Of a stretch of DNA of 64,000 nt, positions 9,843-19,150 are shown one piece after another. Origin of the DNA: Candidatus Rokuibacteriota bacterium (lineage in GTDB: Bacteria; Methylomirabilota; Methylomirabilia; Rokubacteriales; CSP1-6); NCBI GenBank assembly GCA_030647435.1, contig JAUSJX010000022.1, positions 62,001 through 126,000 of the forward strand, in the 5' to 3' direction. The position numbers and the translations under genes are program-made. The number at the start of each line of letters is the position of its first letter. Position 1 is the first letter of the stretch. The notes below the pieces were generated by a model. The model had not been told where the DNA came from. It made no database searches and saw nothing but the letters and a program-made list of their open reading frames with translations.

Positions 9843-10345
9843 TGAAGTACGTCTTCGTCCTCGTGCTCCTGGCCGTGGGCGCGGTCGCGGGTGTGCAGGG
9901 CGTGGCCCTCCTGTACCGCTGGAACCACGACATGGCAGAGACCCAGCGCGTGATGCCCGGCGAGATGAACTTCGCGATGGCCCCCGGCAGTCTCCCTCGG
10001 AGCGGCAGCCAGCTCTACTACGCGAAGGAGCAGCGCGAGGCCGCGTCCCTAAGGAAGAACCCGGTGCCGGCCACCCCCGAGTCCACCAAGAAGGGCGGCG
10101 ATCTCTACGTCGTGTACTGCACGCCCTGCCACGGCGCCTCGGGCAAGGGCGACGGCCTCGTGGCGGCGAAGTTCGTGACTCCCGCGGATCTGACCAACCC
10201 CGCCCTCCAGAAGGCGCGTACCGACGGCTACTGGCAGAGCTACCTCTCGGTCGGCGGCGCCGTCATGCCGTCCTATGGCGAGTCGCTGTCCGCCGAGGAA
10301 CGGTGGCACGTGATCAACTACCTCCGGACCCTGGCCGCGAAATGA
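9839..10345 (+). CDS. actE: Alternative complex III subunit E, membrane-anchored monoheme cytochrome c
   Basis: A 168-aa protein. Residues 1-25 form an N-terminal membrane anchor without a lipobox cysteine. One heme c motif is seen, C94-x2-C97-H98 (YCTPCHGASGKGDG), with M143 (GGAVMPSYG) as likely sixth ligand. It is the only heme protein in this operon, so it is the obvious local electron exit from ActB. Two ATG codons overlap (9839 and 9842); the first overlaps the actD stop. Confidence 0.92.
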   Translation: MMKYVFVLVLLAVGAVAGVQGVALLYRWNHDMAETQRVMPGEMNFAMAPGSLPRSGSQLYYAKEQREAASLRKNPVPATPESTKKGGDLYVVYCTPCHGASGKGDGLVAAKFVTPADLTNPALQKARTDGYWQSYLSVGGAVMPSYGESLSAEERWHVINYLRTLAAK

Positions 10346-11499
10346 GCGCCGCCCCTATGGTCGCGCGAAGCGGGGATGCGCAGAGCAGGGGAGAGCACGC
10401 GGGGCTCCTCTGGGCGCTGGCCGTGGCCGGCGCCGCCGCCTTCCTCTGGGGCGTCCTGGGCTCCGACCCTCGGGCGACGTGGGGCATCTACCTCGTCAAC
10501 CTGCTCTTCTGGTCGAGCTTCGGCATCACGGGCCCGGCCCTGGCCGGGATGATGCAGATGACGGAGGCGAGGTGGTCGCCGTCCGTCAAGCGCCTGGCGC
10601 TCACGACCGCGGGCTTCCTGCCGGTGTCCTTCGTCGGGTTCGTCATTCTCTTCTTCGGGCGGTCGGCGCTCTTCTCATGGGTCAGCCATCCGCTCGAGAA
10701 GAAGGCGGCCTGGCTCAACGTGCCGTTCATGTCGCTGCGGATCGCGTTGGGGAGCCTCGCGCTCTACTGGGTGGCGCTGACCTTCGCCAAGGCGGTGTTC
10801 GCCCAGGACGCGCCGGGAGCGGACTCTCCCGAGGCCCACGCGCGCCGCAACAGGCTCGCGACCGTGCTCCTCATTCTCTTCGTGACGATCCTGTCGCTCT
10901 GGGGCTTCGACCTGATGATGTCGCTCGACCCAGCCTGGTACAGCGGCCTCTTCGGCGGCTACTACGTGGTCACCTCGCTCTACTCGGGATTCGGGCTGGT
11001 AACGTTCCTGACGATCCGGGCCAACGCCCGCGGGGTGATTCAGGTCACCCCGTCCGTGATCCAGGACATGGCCAAGCTGACCTTCGCCATGTGCGTCATG
11101 TGGATGTACTTCTTCTTCTCGCAGTACCTCGTGATCTGGTACGGCAACGTGCCCGTCGAGACCCGGTTCTTCCTCAACCGATTCTTCAATCCGCCGTGGG
11201 GGCACATCGCCTGGGCCATCTTCATCGTGGGCTGGCTCGTCCCGTTCGCGTACCTGCTGAAGCGGCTGACGGGGCGCCCGCCGACGCGCCACAAGGTCTT
11301 CACGGTCATCCTCTTCATGGGCTGGATCGCCATCTTCGTCGAGCGCATCCTGATCATCTTCCCATCGCTCGACAAGAACATCGCCTTCCCGCTGGGGCCC
11401 ACCGCGGTCCTGATCACCGCCGGGTTCTTCGCGCTCTTCTCGCTGAGCCGCCGGCGGTTCATCGCGAAGTATCAGCCGGTCCTCCGCCAGCCCAAGTAG
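10342..11499 (+). CDS. actF: Alternative complex III subunit F, NrfD-like membrane protein
   Basis: A 385-aa polytopic membrane protein with about ten hydrophobic segments, paralogous to ActC in fold. ActF is present in all characterised complexes and probably contributes to proton movement or stability. The ATG overlaps the actE stop by four bases; in-frame codons upstream belong to actE in another frame. It is the last gene of the operon, and no oxidase gene follows. Confidence 0.9.
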   Translation: MSAAPMVARSGDAQSRGEHAGLLWALAVAGAAAFLWGVLGSDPRATWGIYLVNLLFWSSFGITGPALAGMMQMTEARWSPSVKRLALTTAGFLPVSFVGFVILFFGRSALFSWVSHPLEKKAAWLNVPFMSLRIALGSLALYWVALTFAKAVFAQDAPGADSPEAHARRNRLATVLLILFVTILSLWGFDLMMSLDPAWYSGLFGGYYVVTSLYSGFGLVTFLTIRANARGVIQVTPSVIQDMAKLTFAMCVMWMYFFFSQYLVIWYGNVPVETRFFLNRFFNPPWGHIAWAIFIVGWLVPFAYLLKRLTGRPPTRHKVFTVILFMGWIAIFVERILIIFPSLDKNIAFPLGPTAVLITAGFFALFSLSRRRFIAKYQPVLRQPK

Positions 11500-11534
11500 C
11501 CAGGCCGCGTGCCCCGGCCGGCGGCGGCCCGCGG

Positions 11535-11570
11535 TACAATACCCGCGTGATCCAGGTCCCCGCGTGATCC
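11535..11570 (+). promoter_or_regulatory. Promoter -10 and six-codon leader ORF before moeA
   Basis: TACAAT (11535-11540) is followed after six bases by a GTG at 11547 that opens a six-codon frame ending at TGA 11565-11567. That stop overlaps the GTG start of moeA (11564). An 11-base motif (CCGCGTGATCC) occurs at 11543 and again at 11560, so the arrangement arose from a 17-bp duplication. The transcript would begin at or next to the first GTG. Confidence 0.45.
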
Positions 11571-12793
11571 CTGTAGAGGAAGCCCTCGAGCGTATCCTGG
11601 CCCGCGTGGGCGTGCTCGGCGACGAGCTGGTGCCGCTGGCGCGCGCGCTGCGCCGCGTCCTCGCCGAGAGCGTCGTCTCGGGCTTCGACGTCCCGCCCTG
11701 GCCCAATTCGTCCATGGACGGCTATGCGCTCCGGAGCGCCGACACGCGGCGCGCCTCGACGACGGCGGCGGTCCGTCTGACCATTGCGGGGCGGGTGGCT
11801 GCGGGGCACGTCGCCCTGCGCGCGCTCGGGGCGGGTGAGGCCTTCCGGATCTTCACGGGCGGGCCGGTGCCCGAAGGCGCGGACAGCGTCATTCCCCAGG
11901 AAGACGTGAGCAAGGACGGTGGAGCGATCGTCGTGTCGCGCCCGGTCAAGACGGGCGACTTCATCCGCCCCCAAGGCGAGGATATGCGGGCGGGCGATGG
12001 TGTCCTCGAGCGCGGGCGGCTGCTGGGCCCCGCCGAGATTGGTCTGCTGGCGGCGCTCGGCCGCTCCCAGGTGCGCGTGCTCCGGCGGCCGCGAGTCGGC
12101 GTCCTGTCCACGGGCGACGAAATCGTGGACCTGGGCGGGCACCCGGGACCGGGGCAGATCTTGAACTCGAATACGTATTCGCTGATGGCGCAGATCGACG
12201 AGGCGGGCGGCGATCCCGTCTCGCTGGGCGTGGCGCCGGACCGGCTGGACGAGATCGAGACGCGACTCCGCTGGGGCCTCGACTGCGATCTCGTGATTTC
12301 CTCGGCGGGCGTCTCGGTCGGCGAGCACGACTTGGTCAAGGCCGCGCTCGAGCGTCTCGGCGCGGAGCAGCACCTCTGGCTCGTGGACATGCGGCCCGGC
12401 AAGCCCATCGCCTTCGCGACCATTCCATCCGCGGGCAAGCGCGCGCTGCCCGTCTTCGCGCTGCCGGGCAACCCGGTCTCGGCCATGGTCACCTTCGAGC
12501 TCTTCGTGCGCCCCGCCCTCCTGAGGCTCGGCGGTCACGCGCGGCTCCAGCGGCCCGTCGTCCGGGCGCGCGCGGAGGCGCCCATCGCGAATCCGGAAAG
12601 GCGCCGCGGCTACCTTCGCGTGACGCTGTCCGTTGGCGAGGACAGCGGCTATCGCGCGCGGCTGACGGGCGACCAGAGCTCGGGGATCTTGCGCTCCATG
12701 GTGGCCGCCGACGGCCTGGCTGTCGTGCCGGGAGATACGACGGTCGAGGCGGGCGCAACCGTCCCGGTCATTCTGCTTCGCGAGGTCCGCTAG
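11564..12793 (+). CDS. moeA: Molybdopterin molybdotransferase
   Basis: Inserts molybdate into adenylated molybdopterin, the last common step of molybdenum cofactor synthesis. The protein is 409 aa. Family motifs are PPWPNSSMDGYA near residue 45, STGDEIVDLG in the middle domain, and LPGNPVSAMVTFELFVRP late in the MogA-like domain. The GTG start gives the standard N-terminus (PVEEALERIL). A short leader ORF overlaps this start. moaA, an early gene of the same pathway, lies at 32.5 kb, so the genes are scattered. Confidence 0.95.
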   Translation: MIPVEEALERILARVGVLGDELVPLARALRRVLAESVVSGFDVPPWPNSSMDGYALRSADTRRASTTAAVRLTIAGRVAAGHVALRALGAGEAFRIFTGGPVPEGADSVIPQEDVSKDGGAIVVSRPVKTGDFIRPQGEDMRAGDGVLERGRLLGPAEIGLLAALGRSQVRVLRRPRVGVLSTGDEIVDLGGHPGPGQILNSNTYSLMAQIDEAGGDPVSLGVAPDRLDEIETRLRWGLDCDLVISSAGVSVGEHDLVKAALERLGAEQHLWLVDMRPGKPIAFATIPSAGKRALPVFALPGNPVSAMVTFELFVRPALLRLGGHARLQRPVVRARAEAPIANPERRRGYLRVTLSVGEDSGYRARLTGDQSSGILRSMVAADGLAVVPGDTTVEAGATVPVILLREVR

Positions 12794-12799
12794 GACCGA

Positions 12800-13795
12800 T
12801 CAGCGCGTCGTGCCGTAGAGAGCGCGAAGGGTCAGCCAGCCTCCGACGAGCATGGAGGCGAGGGTGACGAGGCTTCCGAGCGCGAGCGTGGATCCGTTCG
12901 TCAGCCCCTGCGTGATGTTGCATCCCTCGGCGAGAATTGCCGAGCCCCCCATGAGCAGCCCGCCGGAGAATATCTTCACGAGGGACCACCCGGGCGGCAG
13001 CTTCCAGCGGAAATCGCCCGACGGCCACGCGGCGGCGAAAGCGCCGACCGGTACGGCCACCAGCATGACCATGCTCCAGTTGACGCGGTTGGGGAACCCG
13101 ACCAACGGGTAGGTCAGGAGCTCGCCTGTGTTGACGGCAAAGGTCAGCCCGACGGGCGGCTCGCCAACGGTCGACGCCCACCAGCCGGCGGCGATGAGGA
13201 CGCCGACCGCCGCGCCGGTGACATGCCAGGGCCACTTGCCGTGGTGCGACTGCCCGCGCGCGCGCACGAGCCAGATACCGCCCACGACCCAGAGCGCGGC
13301 GATCACGAGCCACGGGGAGACGCCGAGCGCCGTCGCGAGAGTGGGCGGCGCGTCGCCGATCGTGATCGTGGGGACCTGGAGCGCGGCGCGCAGCGGGGAG
13401 AGCGAGCCCAGCCTCACCGTCGTGGCGCCCATCGCGAAGCCCAGCAGGATGACCCACGCGCCGACCGCGCCCTCGCCCACGCGGTACCACGTGCTGCCCG
13501 AGCAGCCGCCGGCCAGCACCATGCCCACGCCGAAGACGAGCCCGCCGATGGAGTTCGACATCCAGTGGAACGGCCGGATGGGGAACTCGACGAGCCCGGC
13601 GGCGGAGAGCGCCTGCACGGAGGCCATGGCGACGAGGAGGGCCAGCACGTACGCGCGCGCGATGGCCGTATCGCCCATGAGGAACAGGTTGGCCAGCGCC
13701 CGCATGAGGCAGAAGCCGCCGCGCTGGATGACGTAGCCGAACGCCGCGCCTGCGATCGCGGCCGAGACGTAGAAGGGCCAGGCGGCGTCGGCCAT
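12800..13795 (-). CDS. YeeE/YedE-family transporter, thiosulfate-uptake (TsuA) type
   Basis: A 331-aa membrane protein with about nine or ten hydrophobic helices in two YeeE/YedE repeats. Conserved cysteines are visible: C29 (RGGFCLMRA), C98 (LAGGCSGSTWYR) and one near residue 296 (LAEGCNITQG). In TsuA these lie along the thiosulfate path. Sulfur import would match the cysteine cassette at the left of the window, though the genes are not linked. The gene converges on moeA with six bases between stops and is divergent from the CpoB-like gene. The ATG is preceded by a promoter placed for a leaderless transcript. Confidence 0.88.
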   Translation of the reverse strand: MADAAWPFYVSAAIAGAAFGYVIQRGGFCLMRALANLFLMGDTAIARAYVLALLVAMASVQALSAAGLVEFPIRPFHWMSNSIGGLVFGVGMVLAGGCSGSTWYRVGEGAVGAWVILLGFAMGATTVRLGSLSPLRAALQVPTITIGDAPPTLATALGVSPWLVIAALWVVGGIWLVRARGQSHHGKWPWHVTGAAVGVLIAAGWWASTVGEPPVGLTFAVNTGELLTYPLVGFPNRVNWSMVMLVAVPVGAFAAAWPSGDFRWKLPPGWSLVKIFSGGLLMGGSAILAEGCNITQGLTNGSTLALGSLVTLASMLVGGWLTLRALYGTTR

Positions 13796-13801
13796 GTGCG
13801 C

Positions 13802-13830
13802 ATGCTAGCGAAAAGCCCCCGGCGAGTCAA
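13802..13830 (-). promoter_or_regulatory. Promoter of the YeeE/YedE gene, leaderless spacing
   Basis: Read on the minus strand: TTGACT (13830-13825), 17 bases, TAGCAT (13807-13802), then six bases and the ATG at 13795. A start site seven bases after the -10 falls on the A of the ATG. No Shine-Dalgarno sequence can fit. Confidence 0.75.
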
Positions 13831-13856
13831 AGTTGCGGGGGGCGCGGGTTGCGAGT

Positions 13857-13886
13857 TTGACTTGGCGTGGAGGCGGGTGCTACGGT
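13857..13886 (+). promoter_or_regulatory. Promoter of the CpoB/YbgF-like gene, leaderless spacing
   Basis: TTGACT (13857-13862), 18 bases, TACGGT (13881-13886), then seven bases to ATG 13894. It is arranged back to back with the promoter of the YeeE/YedE gene, with 26 bases between the two -35 boxes. Confidence 0.65.
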
Positions 13887-13893
13887 GGCCGTG

Positions 13894-14718
13894 ATGCTCT
13901 CACTCTCCGTCCGCGCGCTGCTCTGCGGCGTGGCCGCGGCCGCACTTGCCGGCTGCGCGACTGGCCGCGGCGCTCAAACACCCCAGGACGCGCCGCCGGC
14001 CAGGGTCACGCTGGCCGACATGAAGAACACGCAGGACGCGCAGGTGCAGGAGATCGCGCGCCTCGCGGGCGACGTCAAGGCAATGGACGCGCAGCAGGCA
14101 TTCCTCGTGGCCGAGATCAAAAATCTCAGCGAGCAGATCGCAAAGCTCAAATCGTCGCTGAGCGAAGCCGAGGGCGCGATGCGCTCCCTGCGCGCGACGC
14201 CCGTGCCGCCGGAGTCGCGCCCCGCTCCCGCTGTGGTGCCGCCCCCGGCCCCGCCCGTCACGCCCGTTCCGATTCCCGCGCCCGCGCCGAAGCCCGCCGC
14301 GCCCGCGCCGGCCGCGCCTCCCTCGCGCAATGCGGAGGCGAACCGGCTATTCGCCGCCGCGCTCGCCAAGCTGCGCGCTGGGGATAACGGGCAGGCGGCG
14401 CTCGAGTTCACTGAGTTCGTGGTCCAATACCCCGCGCACCCGCAGGCGGCCGCGGCGCAGAACCACATCGGCGAGGCGTACTACCGCCAGCGCGACTACC
14501 GGCAGGCGATGGCGGAGTTCCAGAAAACGGTGGACGGCTACACGCAGGCCGCCCAGGTCTCCGAGGCCCTGTTGAAGATCGGCCTCTGCCACCGCGCGCT
14601 GGGGGACGCCGCGCGCGCGAAGGCCTCCTGGGAGCAGGTGGTCAAGCAGTTTCCGAAGAGTGACGCGGCCCGACAGGCCCGCACGCTCCTGGCTTCGCGG
14701 GCCCCCCCCGGGCGCTAG
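13894..14718 (+). CDS. CpoB/YbgF-like TPR lipoprotein
   Basis: A 274-aa envelope protein. It starts with a lipoprotein signal (lipobox LAGC). A coiled-coil-like part follows (about 40-105), then a Pro/Ala-rich linker, then a C-terminal tetratricopeptide domain (about 150-270) with the YbgF pattern NRLFAAALAKLRAGDNGQAA and AYYRQRDYRQAMAEF. CpoB/YbgF works with Tol-Pal in linking outer membrane constriction and cell-wall synthesis. No tol or pal gene lies next to it here; an OmpA-type lipoprotein lies at the far right edge. The ATG at 13894 is preferred over the GTG at 13867 because it gives a compact signal peptide and matches the promoter spacing. Confidence 0.85.
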   Translation: MLSLSVRALLCGVAAAALAGCATGRGAQTPQDAPPARVTLADMKNTQDAQVQEIARLAGDVKAMDAQQAFLVAEIKNLSEQIAKLKSSLSEAEGAMRSLRATPVPPESRPAPAVVPPPAPPVTPVPIPAPAPKPAAPAPAAPPSRNAEANRLFAAALAKLRAGDNGQAALEFTEFVVQYPAHPQAAAAQNHIGEAYYRQRDYRQAMAEFQKTVDGYTQAAQVSEALLKIGLCHRALGDAARAKASWEQVVKQFPKSDAARQARTLLASRAPPGR

Positions 14719-14730
14719 CAGGATGCTGAA

Positions 14731-14923
14731 AAACCCGCAGGCCGCTCAAAAAGGTCCAGATGCGAGGCGGCGCCCCGCTGTTCGAGTTGAGCGACGGCCT
14801 GTGCCGTCGCGAGACGAGGGCTGGGCTGATTCTGCACGCGAGGCGTACTCCCTGTACGTTGAGCGTGCGGCCGAGGGCGCCAACGAAGCAGATGGGCCTT
14901 TTTCAGCGGCCTGCTGGGGGTTT
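14731..14923. repeat. Hairpin repeat element, copy A
   Basis: Ends are imperfect inverted repeats: 14731-14757 (AAACCC, GCAGGCCGCT, AAAAAGG) against 14894-14923. The interior holds a motif shared with copy B at 48.2 kb in the opposite orientation, including a five-pair GTAC-centred hairpin and GAGCGTGCGGCCGAGGGCGC. Copy A has about 58 extra bases relative to copy B. It begins 12 bases after the CpoB-like stop and may work as a REP-like 3' structure. Confidence 0.8.
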
Positions 14924-14947
14924 GAGGGGGCGGCCATGGCGGTCTGC

Positions 14948-14953
14948 TATACT
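14948..14953 (+). promoter_or_regulatory. Possible -10 element of dprA
   Basis: TATACT at 14948-14953 is a good -10 match and would give a start near 14960, 27 bases before the dprA ATG. No -35 at the normal distance is convincing. Confidence 0.3.
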
Positions 14954-14986
14954 GATTTTCATTCCGTCGAGCCGACGGACAAAGCC

Positions 14987-15919
14987 ATGAACACCACGCG
15001 CGAATGTATCCGGACAGAGACAGGCCGCGAGCCGAGGCAGATCGCGCTCGGCGACACGGCGTACCCTGCCAACCTCCGCGAGATCCAGGCGCCGCCCGCG
15101 CGGCTCTACGTTCGCGGCGCGCTCGCGGAGGACGACGCCCTCGCAATTGCCATCGTCGGCTCGCGCGCGGCGACGCCCTACGGCTTGGCCGTGGCGGAAC
15201 GGCTCGGGGCCGATCTCGCAGCCCGCGGCGTCACCGTGGTGAGCGGACTCGCTCGCGGCATCGACAGCGCCGCCCACCGCGGGGCACTTCGGGCTGGTGG
15301 CCGGACGATCGCGGTGCTGGGCTCGGGAGTGGACGTGATCTACCCGCCCGAGAATCGCCCGCTCGCGGGAGAGATCGAGGCGTCTGGCGCGCTCGTGTCG
15401 CAGTTCGAGCCCGGGACGCGGCCCCTGGCGGGATATTTCCCGGCCCGCAACCGTGTGATCGCGGGCCTGTCGCTCGGCGTGGTGGTCGTCGAGGCCGCTT
15501 CGAGGAGCGGCTCGTTGATCACGGCGGGGCTGGCGGGCGAGCTTGGCCGCGAGGTCATGGCCGTGCCCGGGCCGCTGACGAGCCCGCGGAGCGTTGGCGC
15601 GCACCGGCTGATCCAGGACGGTGCCGCGCTGATCCAGGGCTGGGAGGACGTCGTAGGCCAGCTGCCCCTGCGGTGGCGCGATCGGGTCCGCGCGCTGCCG
15701 CGAAGCGCCGAGGCCCACGGGGAGTCTCTACCCGAGGACAACACGGAAGCGGGTCTACTCCTCCGGATCATCGGTGAAGAGCCGGTGGGTATCGACAGCA
15801 TCATCGAGAGCAGCGGGATGGCGGTGGGCCGGGCTTCGGCCCTGCTCGTCACGCTCGAGGTCGAGGGGCGCATCCGGCAGCTGGACGGCAAGCGCTTCGT
15901 ACAGGTGAGGCTCGGATGA
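14987..15919 (+). CDS. dprA: DNA-processing protein DprA (Smf)
   Basis: Binds incoming single-stranded DNA and loads RecA during natural transformation. The protein is 310 aa from the chosen ATG. The Rossmann-like core is clear: a VGSRAATPYGLAVAE turn, SGLARGIDSAAHRGAL, and a GxVVVEA strand, with a winged-helix-like C-terminus. The reading frame is open upstream through repeat copy A, but that part has no family similarity. The stop overlaps the topA ATG by four bases, starting a dprA-topA-xerC-hslV-hslU run known from many bacteria. Confidence 0.93.
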   Translation: MNTTRECIRTETGREPRQIALGDTAYPANLREIQAPPARLYVRGALAEDDALAIAIVGSRAATPYGLAVAERLGADLAARGVTVVSGLARGIDSAAHRGALRAGGRTIAVLGSGVDVIYPPENRPLAGEIEASGALVSQFEPGTRPLAGYFPARNRVIAGLSLGVVVVEAASRSGSLITAGLAGELGREVMAVPGPLTSPRSVGAHRLIQDGAALIQGWEDVVGQLPLRWRDRVRALPRSAEAHGESLPEDNTEAGLLLRIIGEEPVGIDSIIESSGMAVGRASALLVTLEVEGRIRQLDGKRFVQVRLG

Positions 15920-18270
15920 AGGCCAAGGTCGCCCAGAAGAAGTCTCCGACGGAGACGAAGTCGCCGGCGCCGGCAAAGTCGCCCGGGTCGGTAAAGTCGC
16001 CCGCATCGGCAAAGTCGCCCGGGTCGGTAAAGTCGCTGGTGGTGGTGGAATCGCCCACCAAGGTCAAGACGATCCAGAAGTACCTGGATTCGAGCTTCAT
16101 CGTCAGGGCCTCGATGGGGCACGTCCGCGACCTGCCCAAGAGCAAGCTGGGGGTGGACGAGAAGAAGAGTTTCAAGCCCGACTACCGCGTGCTGCCGGCG
16201 AAGAAGAAGGTGCTCGACGAGCTCAAGAAGGCGGCCGAGAAGGTCGGCGCCCTCTATATCGCCACGGACCCGGACCGCGAGGGCGAGGCGATCGGCTGGC
16301 ACCTTGCCCAGGAGCTGGGCGTGCCCAAGGCCAAGACGTACCGGATCATGTTCAACGAGATCACGGAGCGGGCGGTCAAGGCGGCCTTCCAGCACCCCGG
16401 CAAGATCGACACGAACAAGGTGGACGCGCAGCAGGCGCGGCGCATCCTGGACCGGCTGGTGGGCTACAAGCTGTCCCCGCTGCTCTGGCAAAAGATCCGG
16501 CGGGGGCTCTCGGCCGGCCGCGTCCAGTCCGTCGCGGTGCGGCTCATCACCGAGCGCGAGCGCGAGGTCCTGGCCTTCGTCCCGACCGAGTACTGGTCGC
16601 TGCACGCGCGGCTCAAGGGCAAGAACCCGCCGGAGTTCATCGCCACTCTGCGCGAGGTCAAGGGCGAGAAGGCCGCGCTGGCGACCGAGGCCGCCACCAT
16701 GGCGGTGATGACGTTGCTACACGGCGCGTCCTGGCAGGTCAAGAGCGTCACGCGCGGCGAGCGCCGGCGCAATCCCTCTGCGCCGTTCATCACCTCCACG
16801 CTGCAGCAGGAGGCGAGCCGCAAGCTCCACTTCACGGCCAAGAAGACCATGATGCTGGCGCAGCAGCTCTACGAGGGCATCGAGCTGGGCAGCGAGGGTG
16901 CGGTCGGCCTCATCACCTACATGCGCACCGACGCCGTGCGGGTCGCGGGCGAGGCCCAGGACGAGGCGCGGAGCTGGATCACGGGACGGCTCGGCCGGGA
17001 GTATCTCCCCGATGTCCCGCCGTTCTACAAGGCCAAGAAGAGCGCCCAGGAGGCCCACGAGGCCGTGCGGCCGAGCTCGGTCGCGCGGGAGCCCAAGGCG
17101 GTGGCGCGCTTTCTCTCCAAGGACCAGCTGGCGCTCTACCGTCTGATATGGGAGCGCTTCCTGGCGAGCCAGATGCTCCCGGCCGTCTACGACACCGTGG
17201 CGGCGGACATCGAGGCCGGCACGTGCCTCTTCCGGGCCCAGGGCTCGACGCTCAAGTTCGCGGGCTTCATGGCGGTCTACGTCGAATCACGCGAAGAGTC
17301 GGAAGTCGTGCCCGAGGAAGAGCAGGAGGCCGTGGTGCCCCCGCTCACCCAGGGCGAGATCCTCAAGCTCCTGGCGCTCGACCCCAAGCAGCACTTTACC
17401 CAGCCGCTGCCGCGCTACACCGAGGCCTCGCTGGTCAAGACGCTCGAGGAGCGGGGGATCGGTCGGCCGTCCACGTACGCCCAGATCCTCTCGACCATCC
17501 AGGACCGCGAGTACGTGCGGCGGGAGAAGGGCACGCTGTTCCCGACCGAGCTGGGGATGCTCGTGACGGACCGGCTGGTGCCGTTCTTCCCGGAGGTTAT
17601 GGATATCGACTTCACGGCCCAGCTCGAGGAGTCGCTCGACAAGGTCGAGGAGGGCGACGCCGACTGGGTGGAGCTGGTCGGGAAGTTCAACAGGCAGTTC
17701 GACAAGGACCTCCGCAAGGCGAAGTCGGGCATGCCGGACAACAAGGTCGGGGAGGACACGGGAAAGAAGTGCCCCGACTGCGGCAAGCCCGTCCTCGAGA
17801 AGTGGGGACGGTTCGGCAAGTTCCTGGCCTGCTCCGGCTACCCGGACTGCAAGTACACCAAGGACCTCAGCGGCCGCGAGAAGCCCGCCGACGAGATGAC
17901 CGACGAGGCCTGCCCGACGTGCGGCAAGCCCATGGTCATCAAGCACGGCCGCTTCGGGAAGTTCATCGCCTGCTCGGGCTACCCCGAGTGCAAGACGACC
18001 AAGCCCGTGACCCTCGGGATCGCCTGCTCGGAGGCCGGCTGCGGCGGCCAGCTCGTCGAGCGCCGGAGCAAGCGGGGCAAGACCTTCTACGCCTGCAGCA
18101 AGTACCCCGACTGCAAGTTCGTCGCCTGGACGCGCCCCATCGCGGAGCCGTGCCCGCGCTGCGCCGCGCCGTTCCTGACCGAGCGGATCGCCAAGGGCGG
18201 CAAGCGAACCCGCGCCTGCATCCGCGGCGAGTGCGGCTACAAGGAAGAGGTCGCCCCTTCGGTGGCGTGA
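15916..18270 (+). CDS. topA: DNA topoisomerase I
   Basis: Relaxes negative supercoils. The protein is 784 aa. The TOPRIM domain begins at SLVVVESPTKVKTI (about 38), after an unusual N-terminal tail of five Lys-Ser-Pro-type hexapeptides. The active tyrosine is Y335 (ITYMRTD). The C-terminus carries a series of topoisomerase zinc fingers: CPDCGKP with CSGYPDC, CPTCGKP with CSGYPEC, C-x4-CGGQL with CSKYPDC, and a last CPRCAAP pair. The start overlaps dprA. The basic, Pro/Ser-rich tail resembles flexible DNA-binding tails but is repeat-derived and may be neutral. Confidence 0.97.
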   Translation: MKAKVAQKKSPTETKSPAPAKSPGSVKSPASAKSPGSVKSLVVVESPTKVKTIQKYLDSSFIVRASMGHVRDLPKSKLGVDEKKSFKPDYRVLPAKKKVLDELKKAAEKVGALYIATDPDREGEAIGWHLAQELGVPKAKTYRIMFNEITERAVKAAFQHPGKIDTNKVDAQQARRILDRLVGYKLSPLLWQKIRRGLSAGRVQSVAVRLITEREREVLAFVPTEYWSLHARLKGKNPPEFIATLREVKGEKAALATEAATMAVMTLLHGASWQVKSVTRGERRRNPSAPFITSTLQQEASRKLHFTAKKTMMLAQQLYEGIELGSEGAVGLITYMRTDAVRVAGEAQDEARSWITGRLGREYLPDVPPFYKAKKSAQEAHEAVRPSSVAREPKAVARFLSKDQLALYRLIWERFLASQMLPAVYDTVAADIEAGTCLFRAQGSTLKFAGFMAVYVESREESEVVPEEEQEAVVPPLTQGEILKLLALDPKQHFTQPLPRYTEASLVKTLEERGIGRPSTYAQILSTIQDREYVRREKGTLFPTELGMLVTDRLVPFFPEVMDIDFTAQLEESLDKVEEGDADWVELVGKFNRQFDKDLRKAKSGMPDNKVGEDTGKKCPDCGKPVLEKWGRFGKFLACSGYPDCKYTKDLSGREKPADEMTDEACPTCGKPMVIKHGRFGKFIACSGYPECKTTKPVTLGIACSEAGCGGQLVERRSKRGKTFYACSKYPDCKFVAWTRPIAEPCPRCAAPFLTERIAKGGKRTRACIRGECGYKEEVAPSVA
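15940..16029 (+). repeat. Five 18-bp tandem units at the 5' end of topA
   Basis: Units at 15940, 15958, 15976, 15994 and 16012 encode KSPTET, KSPAPA, KSPGSV, KSPASA and KSPGSV. The third and fifth are identical at the DNA level. The array ends directly at the TOPRIM domain. Confidence 0.95.
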
Positions 18271-18280
18271 GCCTGCGGCC

Positions 18281-19150
18281 ATGAAGGATTCGGCGGCCGA
18301 GTTTCTCCGCTACCTTGATCTCCAGCGCGGCGCCTCGCGCCACACGCTCAGGGGCTACGCCACCGACCTGGCAGAGTTCCGCGCCTTTCTCTCCCGCGAG
18401 GGCATCGGCGACCTCGCTGACGCCGATTCACGGGCGATTAGGGCCTGGCTCGTCCGGCTCCACGACAGGAAGCTCGCCAAGAGCTCCATCGCGCGTAAGC
18501 TCGCCACGGTGAGGAGCTGCTTCAGGTACCTTGCCAGGCTCGGCGTGGTCGAATTCAACCCCGCCCGCCAGGTCAGGAGCCCCAGGCTGCCCAAGCGGCT
18601 GCCCTCCTTCCTGCCCAAGGACGAGTCGAAAGGGCTCTTGGACGCCGAGACGGAGCGGTCGGAGGCGGGACTGCGGGACCACGCGCTGCTCGAACTCCTC
18701 TACGCCACGGGGGTCCGCGTCGCCGAATGCTGCGGCCTCGACCTCGACGACGTCGACCGGCGCCGTGGCGCGGTGCGGGTCATGGGCAAGGGCGGCAAGG
18801 AGCGCGTGGTGCCCGCCGGGGACGCGGCGCTCGGGGCGCTCGACGCATGGCTCTCGGTGCGCGGCGAGGGGAGAGGCGCGCTCTTCACCAATTCGCGCGG
18901 CGGGCGGCTCGGGACGCGGAGCGTGCACCGGATCGTCAAGTGGCGGGCGCGGGCCGCCGGCATCGACAGGCGCGTGACGCCTCATACGCTGCGCCACACC
19001 TTCGCCACGCACATGCTCGGCGAGGGCGCCGACCTGCGCCTCATCCAGGAGCTCCTCGGCCACAGCCGCCTCACCACCACGCAGCGCTACACCCACGTGA
19101 GCCCAGAGCATCTCATGAAGGTGTACGACTCCGCCCACCCGCGCGCGTGA
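18281..19150 (+). CDS. xerC: Tyrosine recombinase XerC
   Basis: A 289-aa site-specific recombinase for chromosome dimer resolution at dif. The N-terminal core-binding domain covers about 1-90. The catalytic set is complete: R146 (ATGVRVAE), K170, H235 and R238 (TPHTLRHTF), H261 (LGHSRL) and nucleophile Y270 (QRYTHV). Its position between topA and hslV matches the codV position in firmicutes and XerC position in many other phyla. It starts 10 bases after topA. Confidence 0.93.

Follow-up and report, generated by a model that had tools for sequence, protein, structure and literature searches.

Divergent promoters predict two leaderless or near-leaderless mRNAs between yeeE and cpoB in Rokubacteria

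Rokubacteria are an uncultured lineage known through soil and groundwater assemblies. The window analysed here is a stretch of 64,000 nucleotides from a Candidatus Rokuibacteriota genome (contig JAUSJX010000022.1), to which all coordinates refer unless stated otherwise. It includes the divergently transcribed genes yeeE and cpoB, whose start codons are 98 bases apart by direct reading (Table 1). The yeeE product can be assigned only to the broad family PF04143; the nearest models are TsuA, all of them under cut-off, and the TsuA thiosulfate transporter model NF052577 is not passed (161.5 bits against a curated cut-off of 400). The cpoB product passes the tol_pal_ybgF model TIGR02795 with 95.9 bits (cut-off 90.1), and a lipobox, LAGC, is recognizable by eye in its translation. 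The yeeE gene is placed between moeA and cpoB (window 12793-12800), with moeA (PF03453, PF00994, PF03454) ending 6 nt from the yeeE 3' end. In several relatives cpoB follows directly after the apparent moeA end, as judged by eye, and yeeE thus appears to have been gained or lost at this position. A scan by short peptide patterns recovered 13 relatives with YeeE, all of them Rokubacteria/Rokuibacteriota, and these neighbours place the window in that lineage.

Table 1. Genes and promoter elements at the yeeE-cpoB locus (window coordinates).
Feature	Coordinates	Strand	Evidence or remark
YeeE/YedE (Sulf_transp) membrane transporter, TsuA-like, 331 aa	12800..13795	-	PF04143, 6.6e-66
yeeE ATG	13793..13795	-	6 nt past the -10 box (N6)
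yeeE promoter: TTGACT 13830-13825, 17-nt spacer, TAGCAT 13807-13802	13802..13830	-	direct reading; partly conserved in relatives
Gap between the -35 boxes, 26 bases	13831..13856	.	direct reading
cpoB promoter: TTGACT 13857-13862, 18-nt spacer with TGC at its end (extended -10), TACGGT 13881-13886	13857..13886	+	
cpoB ATG	13894..13896	+	7 nt past the -10 box (N7); in-frame GTG 13891 is an alternative start
CpoB/YbgF-like lipoprotein with TPR domain, 274 aa	13894..14718	+	TIGR02795, PF13174, PF13525

A preliminary description of the locus had read TTGACT-N17-TAGCAT-N6-ATG ahead of yeeE and TTGACT-N18-TACGGT-N7-ATG ahead of cpoB, and both readings match the letters base for base on the minus and plus strands respectively, as does its count of 26 bases between the -35 boxes. 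It had also placed both transcription starts on the start codon, which is exact for yeeE, whereas the N7 spacing of cpoB puts the canonical start a single base ahead of the A of its ATG. Its phrase of strong -35 and -10 matches is overstated, since the hexamers agree with TTGACA and TATAAT at 9 of 12 positions for yeeE and 8 of 12 for cpoB, and it overlooked the extended -10 of cpoB (TGC-TACGGT). Both sites nevertheless have the elements of a sigma-70-type promoter, namely a TTGACA-like -35, a spacer of 16-18 nt and a TATAAT-like or extended (TGN) -10, with TGN supplementing the lower score of cpoB. A consensus scan of 10000-18500 returned the yeeE site as its sole promoter-like match (1 found against 0.4 expected by shuffle), and the cpoB site was absent from the promoter-like matches of that scan. 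Hexamer scores alone are therefore near chance and do not by themselves prove promoters; the earlier argument that chance is unlikely holds mainly through conservation in relatives, not through these scores.

The reading frames restrict where translation could begin. The TAG of the yeeE -10 box is an in-frame stop, so that there is no yeeE start further upstream in that frame, and the TGA inside the cpoB -35 box likewise leaves no cpoB start upstream of that box. By eye, no GGAG, GAGG, AGGA or AAGG lies within 20 nt before either ATG; a GGAGG at 13869-13873 sits in the spacer of the cpoB promoter, 20 nt from the ATG. Start-proximal RNA folding is ordinary at both starts (z 0.88 and 0.01), and an Rfam scan of 12500-15200 gave no match at E 0.1.

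Orthologs of cpoB were fetched from 60 related genomes and 29 loci were tested, the window's own included; the set consists of 30 loci minus L024 and L027, which are partial matches near contig ends, plus L046. In-frame starts were set by ORF, independently of the promoter, and a locus passed if it had a -35 matching at least 4/6, TANNNT, and an in-frame start 4-13 nt downstream. Nineteen of the 29 loci pass, whereas 200 dinucleotide shuffles average 0.66 passes and never exceed 3; the shuffles control for composition and ignore common descent, and five of the 29 belong to one genus. In every passing locus the spacer is 18 nt and the start codon lies at N7-N10. The extended -10 (TGN-TA[CG][CG][GT]T) occurs in 25/29 loci, that in G012 probably by chance, and in 22/29, again counting the window, TTGACT or TTGACA stands 18 nt ahead of an extended TGN -10 hexamer. 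The ten failures comprise three loci with the promoter and a longer leader containing an SD-like run, two without a -35 (G017 and G035, which keep the extended -10 and the cpoB ATG at N7), and five without a convincing promoter (G027, G016, G011, G037 and G012). In G006 the gap between the -35 boxes of the divergent promoters is 13 nt by eye. Several genomes with no near yeeE ortholog (G020, G029 and G018 among them) have an apparent moeA end upstream of the cpoB promoter, also by eye, and this promoter is therefore independent of its divergent partner.

The yeeE promoter was tested in 19 of the 30 loci, the class-level loci L050-L060 being left out. Under the strict test (-35 at least 4/6) nine loci pass and ten fail, against a shuffle mean of 0.32 and a maximum of 2 under the same kind of composition control, which ignores common descent, and one of the nine (G024) passes on a spurious spacing, its visible site being TAGGAT-N7-GTG. 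With a relaxed -35 there are 14/19 passes, G024 counted (shuffled sequences average 2.1 and reach 6 at most). The yeeE start codon follows the -10 box at exactly N6 in the window, G001 and G013, and a yeeE fragment in G003, outside the test set, has TAGCAT-N6-ATG as well. Of the 13 yeeE loci from the peptide-pattern scan seven were read, the remaining six having contigs of the same length as loci already used. Among the seven, L231, L232 and L233 appear to repeat G037, G036 and G013; the other four, Rokubacteria loci outside the 19 (L228, L230, L234 and L235), all have TANNNT 6-8 nt before ATG or GTG.

Several relatives depart from this arrangement downstream of the promoter. The three cpoB loci with longer leaders (G019, G023 and G024; L009, L011 and L015) have letters from -35 to -10 identical to those of G010 and G031, followed by a leader with an SD-like purine run. 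The proximal cpoB ATG is absent in G019 and G024, where matching by eye puts CTG (across a gap) and ACG at its position. In G023 it persists but opens a frame of just 6 codons, which closes with a TGA overlapping the main ATG (by eye). We interpret these as probable switches from leaderless to leadered expression, in which the same promoter would be retained and a downstream ATG used. On the yeeE side, the promoter in G002 and G004 is followed by N6 and then by a GTG and an ATG that open frames of 38 and 37 codons (L033:1381-1497 and L034:1384-1497), each ending in TAA-ATG, where the ATG is the yeeE start. Translation of yeeE would here be coupled to that of a leaderless upstream ORF; in G002, given a GAGG ahead of the yeeE ATG, ordinary Shine-Dalgarno initiation after a leader of ~110 nt may apply. 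The insert is part of a genus-wide repeat, with 3 to 36 matches in each of the five genomes searched from that genus. From TTT onwards the two upstream ORFs differ at 8 codons, 5 of the differences being residue-changing (by eye), so that we claim retention of the frame only and no selected peptide. An insert of another kind, roughly 170 bp with GTACTGGGCC...GGCCCAGTAC ends, lies between the yeeE and cpoB promoters in G003 (L003), and an element similar to it by eye is found downstream of cpoB in G004.

The same spacing was sought in a 726,479-base sample of the genome (5.79 Mb), in which 530 ORFs were called by a home-made codon model. TANNNT occurs 6-9 nt before the candidate start in 35 of 274 first genes, both window genes included; other 4-nt bins between 2 and 37 hold 20/274 (at 10-13) or 5-16 (elsewhere). 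When a -35 of at least 4/6 is also required, the counts are 10/274 at 6-9, 6 at 10-13 and 0-5 in other bins. Operon-internal genes show a weak rise, with 6/208 at 6-9, 7/208 at 10-13 and 0-4 elsewhere, and the -10 signal is thus enriched in first genes over operon-internal ones (35/274 vs 6/208). Relative to a background of ~10, the mean of bins other than 10-13, the excess at 6-9 nt is ~25 genes, or ~9% of first genes. Shine-Dalgarno cores are likewise enriched at their expected distance, so that the sampled genome is mixed in its initiation mode.

Pattern counts were summed over 36 genomes of the family and 12 of family f5 from among the 60, the other 12 being left out. In the 36 family genomes TTGACN(17-19)TANNNT-N6-8-ATG occurs at 853 sites, compared with 445 when GAT replaces ATG, a control count inflated by GATG overlaps, and 273 with the ATG at N16-18. 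The enrichment is weaker in f5 (315 vs 258 and 204), and G045 of that family has no clear peak among 234 sampled ORFs; for these reasons the leaderless claim is not extended to f5. The window's own genome contains 61 near sites, counted with RTG as start, and 28 far ones. Coding-like ORFs are headed by 18 of the 30 near sites read and by 13 of the 28 far sites, all of which were read; many pattern matches are therefore not leaderless genes, and the pattern is no gene caller. A candidate second divergent leaderless pair at G000:C36:15601-15718 (L183, L184), with divergent near-start promoters and a 311-codon ORF headed by the plus side, was rejected because the minus-strand GTG opens just an 11-codon frame.

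We consider it probable that divergent sigma-70-type promoters give rise to two leaderless or near-leaderless mRNAs (leaders of 0-4 nt) at this locus. The original proposal of two leaderless transcripts gains support from the conserved -10-to-start distance of 6-10 nt, found far more often than in shuffled controls, and from enrichment of the same spacing in first genes and much less in operon-internal genes. Given the conservation, a chance origin of the promoter pair appears very unlikely. On the minus strand an RpoD-type RNA polymerase would start at 13795, from the -35/-10 promoter of yeeE; on the plus strand it would start at 13893 or 13894, from the cpoB promoter with its -35 and extended -10 (TGN). 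Transcription would begin at or within one base of the A of the ATG, yielding a leaderless mRNA, and the ribosome is predicted to load straight onto the 5'-terminal AUG with no Shine-Dalgarno site used. The head-to-head order of yeeE and cpoB accounts for the back-to-back placing of the promoters, and with typical footprints the 26-base gap would leave the polymerases just abutting or slightly overlapping upstream, so that mild mutual interference is possible.

In terms of sequence, leaders of 1-4 nt are indistinguishable from leaders of 0 nt, chiefly for cpoB, where relatives extend to N10, and this bears on the closest alternative, that the promoters are real and the leaders are very short (1-5 nt), initiation being functionally leaderless or relying on an unstructured AUG close to the 5' end. 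The cpoB spacings of N7-N10 among relatives would fit such leaders, as would the second, lower TANNNT hump at 10-13 in first genes (20/274), but first genes of the sampled genome peak at 6-9 (35/274) and yeeE is held at exactly N6 in the window, G001 and G013, and we regard this alternative as unlikely.

It is highly improbable that the -35 and -10 matches are fortuitous or secondary, the true promoters being placed more distally, where they overlap the other gene, and the leaders carrying a weak Shine-Dalgarno sequence or none. Hexamer scores near chance (1 found, 0.4 expected) and the pattern matches that are not gene starts speak for such an account; sequence, spacer and start distance are nevertheless conserved, and the Shine-Dalgarno sequence is absent within 20 nt of either start. 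To the notion that translation begins at other codons, which would undo the leaderless reading of the mRNA given here, we give next to no credence. The cpoB codons GTG 13891 and GTG 13867 are both in frame, yet GTG 13867 is within the promoter spacer and hence upstream of any transcript from that promoter; passing relatives beyond G001 have an ATG (GTG in G033) at N7-N10 and no GTG-ATG pair, and a lipoprotein-type signal sequence, identified by eye, opens the ORF from the ATG.

Leaderless initiation has been amply described for Actinobacteria, Deinococcus and archaea. Two leaderless or near-leaderless mRNAs from yeeE and cpoB would have close parallels among known bacterial systems. Zheng et al. 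2011 (PMC3160421) report leaderless genes in 207/953 bacterial genomes, take a TAnnnT placed ~10 bp ahead of the start codon in high-GC genomes for the -10 box of a leaderless gene, and describe changes of initiation mechanism between genes of common ancestry. As a mark of such TA-led genes we looked for TANNNT 6-8 nt before the start, a range that includes both yeeE (N6) and cpoB (N7); the part of that survey listing groups with TA-led genes names neither Rokubacteria nor Methylomirabilota, and has one genome as 'unclassified'. In Mycobacterium tuberculosis, Cortes et al. 2013 (PMC3898074) describe a TANNNT -10 and about one quarter of the genes with a primary start site as leaderless; divergent promoters are often juxtaposed, and leaderless mRNAs come from both prpD and the regulator Rv1129c divergent to it. 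That leaderless transcriptome lacks a conserved -35 motif according to the same study, whereas yeeE and cpoB both have TTGACT, cpoB with an extended -10, and their 5' ends are predicted from sequence. For Deinococcus-Thermus, Zhong et al. 2025 (PMC12340547) take TANNNT ~6-7 bp before an ORF as a promoter and assume a leaderless mRNA; the share given there for D. radiodurans is nearly one third of genes, compared with ~9% of sampled first genes above background here. The StartLink paper (PMC9581028) summarises leaderless transcription predicted by GeneMarkS-2, and Rokubacteria are not mentioned in that summary.

Leaderless gene starts are thus already known in other bacteria, and for Rokubacteria no earlier report was found: searches of the open-licence literature for leaderless initiation in Rokubacteria, Methylomirabilis and Methylomirabilota, and for Rokubacteria with Shine-Dalgarno, returned none, the sole match for Methylomirabilota and leaderless merely citing a gene-finder paper. 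We hold it an even question whether leaderless initiation serves a real minority of transcription units across Rokubacteria, with the variants at yeeE-cpoB (coupling in G002 and G004, the switch to Shine-Dalgarno in G019 and G024) displaying its evolution. If the prediction of leaderless mRNAs holds, leaderless initiation would extend to this uncultured lineage, and its gene starts should not be called from Shine-Dalgarno signals alone. The locus would offer a compact natural series of leaderless, leaderless-upstream-ORF and SD-led forms on one ancestral promoter, useful for studying how initiation modes interchange.

Downstream of this region, the longest dprA ORF (window 14660-15919) begins within cpoB. 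The conserved dprA start is more likely an ATG near 14987, with TATACT 33 nt upstream, as seen in G001 and consistent with the window translation, and the first 109 codons of the longest ORF are probably not coding.
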